Part shown: piece by piece, positions 9,371-52,539 of the stretch
How positions within the stretch are numbered: position 1 is the stretch's first letter
Layout: each line of letters opens with the position of its first letter
NCBI GenBank assembly: GCA_945919795.1
Contig: CAMEJJ010000007.1
Span: 1 to 64,000 of the forward strand
DNA: 64,000 nucleotides
Direction: 5' to 3'
Origin: an uncultured Lachnospiraceae bacterium
GTDB taxonomy: Bacteria > Bacillota > Clostridia > Lachnospirales > Lachnospiraceae
Position numbers and translations under genes: made by a program
Notes under the pieces: model-generated
What the model saw: the letters and a program-made list of their open reading frames with translations, nothing else
Told to the model about the DNA's origin: nothing
Database searches by the model: none

Positions 9371-9461
9371 TCGTTTGTCAAGTGTTATTGCACTTTTTAT
9401 TGCTAATCATTGTTTATCTTTTTTATTATATACCCAATCAACTATCATTTCCGGCATTGGG

Positions 9462-9731
9462 ACTACATATGCTTGTAGTCTGTCATGCCAAATGGACTTT
9501 TCTTTGCGCTTTGGGAATACACCTGCTTGTGGCTTGTCATGCCAAACGGACTTTTCTTTACGCTTTGGGACTACATCCGCTTGTGGCTTGTCATGCCAAA
9601 TGAACTTTTCTTTACGTTTTGGGACTACATCCGCTTGTGGCTTGTCATGCCAAATGAACTTTTCTTTGCGTTTTGGGACTACATCCGCTTGTGGCTTGTC
9701 ATGCCAAATGGACTTTATTTCGCGACTTAAG
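9462..9731. repeat. Five 54-bp tandem repeats
   Basis: Units at 9462, 9516, 9570, 9624 and 9678, each 54 bases, with consensus ACTACATCCGCTTGTGGCTT plus GTCATGCCAAATGAACTTTT and CTTTACGTTTTGGG. There are no spacers between units. Because 54 is divisible by three, open frames run through both strands (ORFs 9375-9746 and 9407-9766). I cannot support either as a gene. Each junction carries GACTAC or a variant of it, the half-site of the neighbouring BlaI operators. Confidence 0.95.
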
Positions 9732-9736
9732 ACTAC

Positions 9737-9775
9737 AAAAAGGTGAGTGGCACATCTGCCTCTCACCTTTTCTTT
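9737..9775 (+). terminator. Terminator closing the 54-bp repeat array
   Basis: AAAAGGTGAG and CTCACCTTTT form a stem followed by TCTTTTATTTTT on the plus strand. It would end a plus-strand transcript through the array, but it is nearly symmetric and may act on both strands. Confidence 0.7.
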
Positions 9776-10258: not shown

Positions 10259-11758
10259 TTAATCAGCAAAAAGCTTTCGTTTGCGCTCAATCATCTCATC
10301 TATTTTTTCAATGTAAAGCTTCACATCCTTTACATTATCGCACCTCTCGATTCTCCCGTCCGGGAACACTCGCTTGGTAATTGAACCTGCTCCCAGAGCA
10401 ATGATAGTCTGGACTTCCTCCATAATCAAAATATTATAGATTCCATATTTCCCCGGTTTTGCATAACCGACATTTTCAAAATTGCCGGACATATTTTTCT
10501 GGCGATACAGATAATAAGGATCCATTCCCATATCAGTTGCTCCTTTTGCAGCAACTTTCATCATATCATCCGTATTATTCAGGCAATCGATTCCGTTCTC
10601 TTCTACCCACTGTTTTAATTTTGAGGCACGCTTAATAGCAAGCGAATGAACCGTCAACGAATCCGGAGCAAGTTCTTTAATCTGGCGAATCGTCTCGGCT
10701 ACATCCCCCTCATCTTCACCGGGAAGTCCTAAAATCATATCCATGTTGATATTGTCAAAACCAATCTCTTTTGCAAGCCGGTAAGCATCTTTTACCTGAG
10801 AAACCGTATGCTGTCTTCCGATGATTTTTAAGGTTTCTTCTTTCATGGTCTGCGGATTTACCGAAATTCTGCCAACCTTATGTTTATGAAGCACCTGCAA
10901 TTTTTCCTTAGTAATACTGTCTGCCCTGCCGGCCTCAACCGTAAACTCCAAAAGATGGGACAAATCAAAATATTTCTCCAACAAAGAAAGCAGACGCTCT
11001 AACTGCTCTGCGCTCAAAGTAGTCGGTGTACCTCCACCTACATAGACACTATCTAAAATACGGTCTGAAAAAGCCTCAGAAACATAAACCATCTCTTTTT
11101 CCAGACAATCAATATAATTATCCACTTCTTTTTCAAAAGCACAAATCGGATTGGATGTAAAAGAACAGTACAAACATCTAGTAGGACAGAACGGAATACC
11201 GATGTATAAACTATATCCCTGTTCAACATGGAGCTTATTTAATAAATCATGCTCTCTATGAGCAATGTCCGTTGCCAATTTTATTTTTTCATCACTCACA
11301 AAATGATTCTGTTTCATAAAATCGGCAATCTGAGCATCATTCTTTCCGTCTTCTATCATTGTCATAGCAATCTTAGTAGGACGAATACCGGTCAGATTAC
11401 CCCATGGCAGACTTTTTTGATGAATATCACACAGACTTAAATATAAAAACTGCTTAAATTTGTTTTTATCCTCTTTTCGAAGTAAGCCGTTGCTAACTTT
11501 AAAATCATACGGCGCAGTTGCCGTATAGCAATGCGTCAGTCCGTTTTCTTCATCGCTATAAACAATCTGAGGTGGATTTGACAAAAGAGAAATATAAAAC
11601 GTGGTGGGTTGTGCATTCAAAATACAATCTATCAATCCACCTTCTGCATTTTCTTTATCCGGCGTAAGCACCTTCACCGTTTCTTCCGGATAAAAAGCCT
11701 TTACCAGCGAATGAATGTCATATTCCAAATTTGCCACATCTACTTTTACAATCAACAT
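10259..11758 (-). CDS. hemZ: HemZ, radical SAM coproporphyrinogen dehydrogenase-like
   Basis: 499 residues, normal length for HemZ. The radical SAM cluster motif CPTRCLYC is present at about residues 170-180, followed by VYVGGGTPTTLS and the VEAGRADSIT and RISVNPQTM segments typical of HemN/HemZ proteins. The C-terminal LGAGSITKRVF region also fits. HemZ oxidatively decarboxylates coproporphyrinogen III or acts in a related anaerobic haem step, using a 4Fe-4S cluster and SAM. In related Clostridia it sits next to the MBL hydrolase found 500 bases upstream; here two long inverted repeats separate them. Confidence 0.95.
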   Translation of the reverse strand: MLIVKVDVANLEYDIHSLVKAFYPEETVKVLTPDKENAEGGLIDCILNAQPTTFYISLLSNPPQIVYSDEENGLTHCYTATAPYDFKVSNGLLRKEDKNKFKQFLYLSLCDIHQKSLPWGNLTGIRPTKIAMTMIEDGKNDAQIADFMKQNHFVSDEKIKLATDIAHREHDLLNKLHVEQGYSLYIGIPFCPTRCLYCSFTSNPICAFEKEVDNYIDCLEKEMVYVSEAFSDRILDSVYVGGGTPTTLSAEQLERLLSLLEKYFDLSHLLEFTVEAGRADSITKEKLQVLHKHKVGRISVNPQTMKEETLKIIGRQHTVSQVKDAYRLAKEIGFDNINMDMILGLPGEDEGDVAETIRQIKELAPDSLTVHSLAIKRASKLKQWVEENGIDCLNNTDDMMKVAAKGATDMGMDPYYLYRQKNMSGNFENVGYAKPGKYGIYNILIMEEVQTIIALGAGSITKRVFPDGRIERCDNVKDVKLYIEKIDEMIERKRKLFAD

Positions 11759-11798
11759 GATAATACACTCCGTTTTTATTTTGGGTTGTGGTCTGCAA

Positions 11799-11938
11799 GG
11801 AATATATTATCTTTCCCGTGCATAACTAAAGTTGATAAGATAAGTTTGACGTCCTGTCGCGAAGTGCTGATATCTTATCGGAATACTAAGATAAACTAAT
11901 CAACAACGTCAAAATGCACGAGAAAGATAATATATTCC
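11799..11938. repeat. Long inverted repeat A (140 bp)
   Basis: Outer arms of 25 bases (11799-11823 and 11914-11938) pair with one mismatch. Inside are shorter paired blocks (GTTGAT/ATCAAC, GATAAGAT/ATCTTATC, TTTGACG/CGTCAAA), so the whole can fold as a branched hairpin. The arm AATATATTATCTTTCCCG resembles the arm AATATATATCTTTGCCCG of the element at 52.2 kb. No ORF. Confidence 0.85.
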
Positions 11939-12002
11939 ATGCTCAACATAAAAATCAAACTATTCTCATCTAAGTATTTTCATCTAAGTATTTTCATAGC
12001 TA

Positions 12003-12227
12003 GTTGGGTGGAAATATATCTCATGCGAGTTAATTGCAAAGATGCTGCCTTTTGACTTAGTATTTTGGTCTTATTTCAGCAATTCGCAGCACGGATGCTG
12101 CGAAAGGTGCACGTCGGACATGGATGTCCGGGTGCACCGGTGCGTCCGAAGTCAATTCACTTTCCCAAAATACTTAGTCAAAATCAGCATCGAAGCCTTA
12201 ACTCGCATGAGATATATTCCACCCAAC
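12003..12227. repeat. Long nested inverted repeat B (225 bp)
   Basis: Outer arms of 31 and 30 bases (12003-12033, 12198-12227) differ by one bulged A. A second arm pair of about 27 bases (12041-12068, 12165-12191) lies inside. Two further hairpins follow (12083-12104 around CGCAGCACGGATGCTGCG, and 12106-12138 around GTGCAC/GTGCAC with GGACATGGATGTCC). The layout is a long stem ending in branches. ORF-track entries here are shadows. Confidence 0.85.
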
Positions 12228-12253
12228 GTCCCCCCGAAAAATACCCCTACGCA

Positions 12254-12877
12254 TCAGACGCAGGGATTATATTCTTTTTCATGTCCGATGGTAGTCGCTT
12301 CGCCGTGTCCGGGATATACCTTGGTATCGTCCGGAAGTAAAAAGAGTTTTTCCCGGATACTGTGGATGAGTTCAGATGCAGATCCACCCGGAAAATCAAT
12401 TCTACCAACGGATTCCTCAAACAGGGTATCTCCGGCAATCAAGATGCCATCTTCTTCAAAATAGTAGCAGCATCCGCCTTTGGTATGTCCGGGTGTTGCG
12501 ATGACTTTAAATGTCATTCCGGCTTCGGTACAGATATCACCGTCTTTTACAAAATCATCTGCCACAACCGTATAGGCACTTCCAAAAGCTCCGGACAAAT
12601 TGGTCGCAGGATCTTCCAAAAGCTCTTTTTCCACATCTAAAGCATAGACTTTGGCACCGGTCAGATTTCTTAACTCATTGCAACCTTCTATATGGTCAAA
12701 ATGACCGTGTGTCAAGTAAATGGCTGCAATATGAAAACCTGCTTCTGTCAGTTTCTCATAAATATATTCACCTCGATCACCCGGATCAAAAAATATAACG
12801 TCCTTTTTTCCTTCTTCATAAACAAAATAACAATTAGTCGCACATGAACTTAATATAAATTTCCCAATCTTCAACAT
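12254..12877 (-). CDS. MBL-fold hydrolase, glyoxalase II-like
   Basis: 207 residues, a single metallo-beta-lactamase domain. The zinc motif THGHFDHIEG is near residue 57, the second His in ATPGHTKGG near 130, the bridging Asp in AGDTLFEESVGR near 150, and the last His in YPGHGEAT near 192. This matches the short YcbL/YqgX group that hydrolyses thioesters such as lactoylglutathione; the true substrate is unknown. In related genomes it commonly lies between relA/spoT and hemZ. Confidence 0.9.
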   Translation of the reverse strand: MLKIGKFILSSCATNCYFVYEEGKKDVIFFDPGDRGEYIYEKLTEAGFHIAAIYLTHGHFDHIEGCNELRNLTGAKVYALDVEKELLEDPATNLSGAFGSAYTVVADDFVKDGDICTEAGMTFKVIATPGHTKGGCCYYFEEDGILIAGDTLFEESVGRIDFPGGSASELIHSIREKLFLLPDDTKVYPGHGEATTIGHEKEYNPCV

Positions 12878-49685: not shown

Positions 49686-49919
49686 TTTTCAGATTTGTAT
49701 TCTCAATATATATCTTTGTCCGCTGGCTTTTACAAGGTTTCGTGTTTTTCTTAGCGGCATATGCGAACAAAAATAATGACCGGTTTCAACTGTCTGAAGA
49801 CGAAGTCTGAGTTTTGAAACCGGTCATTTAATCATACTTTGTGAGCATGTCGCTTAGAAAAACTAGAAACCGAAGTACGAAGCAGACAAAGATATATATT
49901 GAGAACACAAATCCGAAAA
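49686..49919. repeat. Nested palindromic element C (234 bp)
   Basis: Outer arms of 35 bases (49686-49720 and 49885-49919) pair with two mismatches. Inner arms TTCTTAGCGGCAT and ATGTCGCTTAGAA pair with a G-U. The centre is AATGACCGGTTTC and GAAACCGGTCATT around AGAC-GAA-GTCT. Related to the elements at 52.2 and 58.0 kb. It lies between divergent genes. Confidence 0.9.
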
Positions 49920-52078: not shown

Positions 52079-52539
52079 TAATTGTGTAACTGAGAAACAT
52101 GCAGAAAGCGCAAATATATGAAGCTTTTGACCTTAGATGCAGACTTTTTTCTCTGCCGTCATTTCTCACTATTTATTATTCGCAACTTTGGGGACATAGC
52201 CAGTCGCCCTAACAGAAATATATATCTTTGCCCGAGGAATTTGGCGAGGTTTCCTGACATTTCTTAGCGGCATAAGCGAACAAAAATAATGCCCGGTTTC
52301 AACTGTTCGAAGACGAAGTCTGAGTTTTGAAACCGGGCACTTAATATATACTTTGTGAGCATGCCGCTTAGAAATGCCGGAAACCGAAGTATGAATCGGC
52401 AAAGATATATATTTCTGTAAGGGTGACTGCCATCCCACAAAGATTGCGAACCTTGTGAGAAACGCGGCAGAGCGTCTGCATAATCGGTCTGCAAGCTTTA
52501 TATATTTGCACTTTCTGCATATTCTCAGTTACACAATTA
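52079..52539. repeat. Giant nested palindromic element D (461 bp)
   Basis: Outer arms of 48 and 47 bases (52079-52126 and 52493-52539) pair with few mismatches. A middle region pairs through GATGCAGAC and GTCTGCAT and TTTCTCAC/GTGAGAAA. Core arms AATATATATCTTTGCC and GGCAAAGATATATATT lie at 52212-52233 and 52396-52417. The centre matches element C and ends in AGAC-GAA-GTCT. It lies between the pyrI stop and terminator. ORFs called on it are shadows. Confidence 0.93.

Follow-up and report, generated by a model that had tools for sequence, protein, structure and literature searches.

Two long palindromes, A and B, lie between the hemZ-like gene and the gene for an MBL-fold hydrolase, and these probably represent a head-to-head pair of a MITE-like element carrying the TwoAYGGAY RNA, each copy of which is likely to provide a CsrA site. 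This reading draws on observations made in the window (the whole 64-kb stretch of DNA that was analyzed) and in related genomes, namely, membership in one RNA family, the number of copies, polymorphic sites, a covarying structure, target duplications (TSDs) in one related genome, conserved loops, and a csrA-restricted distribution; what we infer from them is that copies are transcribed and bind CsrA, with whatever effect this may have on hemZ. A and B are members of a known family, TwoAYGGAY (RF01731; Weinberg et al. 2010, PMC2864571), which has been presented in the literature as a structured RNA with no assigned function. What is added here is that the family is transposable, that its arms covary, and that its range is largely limited to genomes with csrA. 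The features of the locus are as follows.

10259 to 11758, minus strand: hemZ-like gene, named as in the original prediction, downstream of the insertion; a conserved neighbor of the MBL gene in the genus
11783 to 11949 (approximate ends), minus strand: element A, assigned as a TwoAYGGAY copy that has lost an internal segment (junction close to 11847/11848) from a profile match, intact orthologues, and alignment
11799 to 11823: left outer arm of A, from the inverted-repeat search
11914 to 11938: right outer arm of A, from the inverted-repeat search
12003 to 12227, plus strand: element B, a complete TwoAYGGAY hairpin with outer arms, from the Rfam match and fold
12003 to 12033: left outer arm of B, not covered by the Rfam model, from the inverted repeat, arm comparison, and covariation
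12034 to 12198, plus strand: RF01731 TwoAYGGAY core of B (98.1 bits against a gathering score of 43, E 4.4e-16)
12083 to 12104, plus strand: apical hairpin 1 of B, loop ACGGAT at 12091-12096
12106 to 12138, plus strand: apical hairpin 2 of B, loop ATGGAT at 12120-12125 (GGACATGGATGTCC)
12198 to 12227: right outer arm of B, from the inverted repeat, arm comparison, and covariation
12254 to 12877, minus strand: MBL-fold hydrolase gene, upstream in the operon (open reading frame)

The MBL and hemZ genes are co-directional, both on the minus strand, and the two palindromes that the original prediction placed between them are real and far beyond chance. A (11799-11938) is a 140-bp palindrome with 17 exact base pairs at its ends and 38 nucleotides matching at 84%, and its RNA fold of -57 kcal/mol (z = -8.9) is far better than those of shuffled sequences. 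The outer arms of B (12003-12033/12198-12227) pair over 21 exact base pairs with one bulge and are accompanied by a second stem (12050-12068/12165-12183; 19 nucleotides, 95%) and two inner hairpins; its fold of -122 kcal/mol (z = -16.8) was equalled by none of 200 shuffles. In an exact inverted-repeat scan of the 64-kb window (arms of at least 13 bp, partners within 500 bp), arms of at least 15 bp occurred only at A, at B, and at two further palindromes, C and D, including a wider flanking repeat of D and an inner stem of C.

Searching the whole window against Rfam returned a single family, TwoAYGGAY, matching the core of B. The score places B in the family, the model ends short of its outer arms of approximately 30 bp, and the two AYGGAY-loop hairpins that characterize TwoAYGGAY are present as ACGGAT and ATGGAT. 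A scored below the RF01731 cut-off because of an internal deletion, its apical tip being largely deleted. In two close species, G002 and G003, the orthologue of A occupies the same site, is intact, and matches RF01731 with 99.8 bits. When strand-turned, A aligned with left-type copies along the arm, the basal stem, and into the beginning of hairpin 1, after which the internal deletion follows, and a profile built from 24 B-type copies of its own genome matched A at 1.3e-14. These alignments indicate that A is an internally deleted TwoAYGGAY copy on the strand opposite to B. Since A and B share a family and lie on opposite strands, they form one head-to-head pair of one family; the one point on which the original prediction was wrong is that A belongs with B and not with C and D. 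Their earlier description as dispersed repeats with relatives holds: the genome has 31 RF01731 matches, copies number 0 to 31 per genome across nine members of the genus, and approximately 14% of the sampled genomes of its own family are positive. Matches of A to microRNA families were to eukaryotic hairpin models, far below the cut-offs, and were disregarded.

Comparison of the insertion site across the genus showed that the MBL-hemZ gap is 495 to 559 bp in this genome (G000), G002, and G003, with the pair inside, versus 17 to 169 bp without the pair in G001, G004, G005, G007, and G008; in G006 the two genes nearly adjoin. Empty sites between hemZ and the MBL gene, which had been put forward as a check, are therefore provided by six other genus members. 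At a site on contig C23 the whole unit is absent from G007. At another, on C15, the left hairpin is absent in G003 and most of the right hairpin is absent in G002, partial losses of the kind that palindromes, being prone to deletion, are expected to undergo.

The direct evidence that the element moves, inserting with duplication of its target, comes from the complete genome G193, which belongs to a different family of Clostridia and in which 27 left ends were found by pattern, along with many full copies. The G193 elements end in CTKYRATTCGTAATAT and its complement as inverted repeats (TIRs), and are flanked by target duplications, for example, ATCATATAA, TTAACCTAT, ATCGCTTAT, and ATGGAATGG, mostly of 8 to 10 bp with a mode of 9. 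The inverted-repeat ends and 9-bp target duplications identify the element as a MITE; the family as a whole displays dispersed non-coding copies (31 in the genome of the window), TIRs with TSDs (in G193), and empty sites. The copies in the genus of the window are old and have no clear TSD, and at this locus none was seen flanking either A or B or the two together. The ten candidate end regions read in G193 yielded no transposase that shares these ends. Duplications of 9 bp and ends starting with CTG occur in IS4-group elements (IS10 and IS50), which is a lead only. One G193 element of approximately 600 bp (L206 381-1000) has a second TwoAYGGAY-like hairpin nested within the first. The element resembles bacterial MITEs such as Correia elements and ERIC in being short, non-coding, intergenic, and high in copy number, with TIR ends and a 9-bp TSD (G193), but unlike them it includes an RNA domain that resembles a protein-binding site, is conserved, and is constrained in a strand-specific way.

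Pairing of copies is nearly strict. By hand count, 29 of 30 neighboring pairs less than 1 kb apart in the genus were head to head, many of these pairs being orthologous among the three close species, and head-to-head pairs also occur in other genera. The spacers of eight pairs are unrelated and share only chance 9- to 11-mers, which disfavors composite transposition of a whole pair with its spacer; the pairs are therefore probably not copies of one composite, and the head-to-head arrangement is explained neither by simple duplication nor by a composite that moves as a unit. REPINs and BIMEs likewise form inverted pairs of palindromes between genes, but the hairpins described here are much larger and have TSDs in a relative. 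Extra pieces at two pairs, a close copy of the left arm immediately beyond the C31 pair (L005 ~1400-1500) and a partial second copy within the spacer of the C5 pair (L007 ~1700-1930), show local rearrangement around the palindromes. Two copies with near-identical arms lie 8 kb apart at G000:C8:28067-36241 (L047), and the same copies are only 1.3 kb apart at the related site G002:C44:48498-50145 (L048); a large gene for a Sel1-like repeat protein is part of the extra DNA at the former.

Copies of the element fold as hairpins of approximately 230 nucleotides, whose outer arms vary between copies and are complementary within each. In an alignment of 24 copies from the own genome, 94.1% of cells were paired and 46 of the 57 pairs had double changes; none of 500 shuffles scored as high, and sliding the partners by one to three columns destroyed the signal. 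All 19 pairs of the outer arms, beyond the Rfam model, had double changes, and the median arm match score was 25 within a copy, compared to 7 between copies and 6 for shuffled arms. Such complementarity could reflect either selection on the RNA fold or palindrome repair, in which template switching equalizes the arms. The conserved loops favor selection on RNA folding over repair, at least in the core.

Paired A(N)GGA hairpin-loop sites, as are found in CsrA-binding RNAs, were present in the sense strand of 25 of 30 copies from the own genome, while 26 of 30 had no A(N)GGA loop in the antisense strand. The loop variants were CAYGGAYG, CAAGGAUG, and CAGGAUG. In other Clostridia families, where the arms are unrelated, paired GGA loops were kept in nearly all of 20 copies. 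The CsrA site has a GGA in a loop and the consensus RUACARGGAUGU. The TwoAYGGAY loops match this pattern, and by this analogy TwoAYGGAY RNA is predicted to bind CsrA. The same binding was predicted in 2014 (Gardner and Eldai, PMC4333381), and our literature search found no experimental test of it after that prediction.

The gene csrA was present in all 21 TwoAYGGAY-positive genomes of a 150-genome sample of the own family versus 59 of the 129 others (46%, p = 4.5e-7), and in 24 of 28 positives versus 71 of 263 others in the class sample (27%, p = 1.5e-9); outside the own family, the figures were 20 of 24 versus 66 of 257 (p = 3.3e-8), all three p values being without correction for phylogeny. 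Among the class positives that are at least 90% complete, 21 of 22 have csrA. The four positives in which no csrA was found are incomplete (G334, G375, and G414, 80 to 88% complete) or very fragmented assemblies (G432, 95% complete, approximately 400 contigs). TwoAYGGAY is thus found almost only with csrA in the Clostridia genomes sampled, which is new here. The host csrA (G000:C13:24123) lies between fliW and flagellin. Because csrA travels with these flagellar genes, motility is a confounder, and either it or common descent could underlie the co-occurrence. Several csrA-positive relatives (L148, L149, L150, L151, L153, and L157) have a csrA-like gene near a tyrosine-recombinase-like open reading frame of approximately 195 residues; this gene is a divergent paralogue in most and adjoins a flagellin gene in most cases, and the arrangement is possibly a switchable flagellin cassette.

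We propose that the element is a non-autonomous, MITE-like unit whose body is a long hairpin tipped by the two TwoAYGGAY GGA-loop hairpins. The pair would have entered the MBL-hemZ operon in an ancestor of the three close species, and A would then have lost its apical part in this genome. On sense transcription, the arms may fold a copy into a rigid rod presenting two A(N)GGA loops, which would most likely bind one CsrA dimer, so that each copy would act as a local CsrA site in an mRNA or as part of a distributed CsrA sink. In the MBL-hemZ mRNA the truncated A is in sense and B is in antisense, the head-to-head arrangement allowing only one sense copy; B is therefore not expected to act on hemZ through CsrA unless it is transcribed from the other strand. 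That the whole family is a transposable carrier of CsrA-binding RNA, spreading CsrA sites or a sink and persisting only in CsrA hosts, is an extension that we put forward tentatively, at somewhat short of even chances. The published TwoAYGGAY RNA and the copies described here share the core structure, the two AYGGAY loops, and an occurrence in Clostridia; here, the core sits within a longer hairpin that is transposable, has outer arms covarying beyond the model, is flanked by TSDs in a related genome, stands almost always in head-to-head pairs, and is largely limited to genomes with csrA. Since 2010 TwoAYGGAY has stood as a probable RNA with no assigned function; it is now seen to be mobile, densely covarying, and almost confined to genomes with csrA, and these properties make CsrA binding directly and cheaply testable. 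Given the predicted binding, it would be a tangible example of how transposons can spread the sites of a global posttranscriptional regulator.

The copies could instead be selfish DNA only, the hairpin being a transposition substrate or stabilized palindrome and the GGA loops serving a transposase or replication rather than CsrA. The TSDs and TIRs fit this alternative, as do the frequent internal deletions, typical for palindromes, and the intergenic scatter of all 21 units, which are often less than 100 bp from a gene at both ends and have no fixed relation to gene starts. However, the apical A(N)GGA loops are kept while stems change, in distant families too, and GGA is strand-asymmetric; together with the strong restriction to csrA genomes, these features make a purely selfish element unlikely.

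A second alternative, to which we give slightly less weight, holds that paired copies are free-standing CsrB-like sponge RNAs transcribed outward from the spacer. At the time of the 2014 prediction, CsrA sponge RNAs were known from Gammaproteobacteria only. Compared by features, the element is like CsrB, CsrC, and RsmZ in its paired GGA loops, which have the form CA(N)GGAUG and are closed by stems, and the two GGA hairpins per copy, the many copies, and the outward head-to-head orientation would suit such a role. Unlike those RNAs, it has two sites per copy and many genomic copies, and no dedicated promoter or terminator was seen. In consensus scans, the pair spacers, which lack common sequence, contained no more divergent promoter-like matches than shuffles did, and no intrinsic terminator followed A or B.

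The original prediction had also allowed that A and B are only alternative terminators of hemZ and the MBL gene. We consider this, or a role as attenuators, improbable and reject it: the hairpins are very stable and lie between co-directional genes, but neither is followed by a T-run, the only terminator-like match (12243-12267) lies outside both at the MBL 3' end, and the family occurs at many unrelated loci and is missing from this site in other species.

That A belongs with D in one superfamily and B stands apart, as first proposed from the short arm resemblance AATATATTATCTTTCCCG / AATATATATCTTTGCCCG, can be dismissed with near certainty, since the profile of B-type copies matches A and not C or D, the intact A orthologues are RF01731, and the A/D likeness (score 13 to 15) is no better than that of A to some TwoAYGGAY arms (15). 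C (49691-49915) and D (52201-52430) represent a separate family of palindromic repeats of approximately 206 to 225 bp, with at least 40 copies in the genome and no Rfam match. Elsewhere in the window, at 9407-9766, a short open reading frame consists of tandem 18-residue repeats (FIWHDKPQADVVPKRKEK); it coincides with a DNA tandem repeat and may be no gene.
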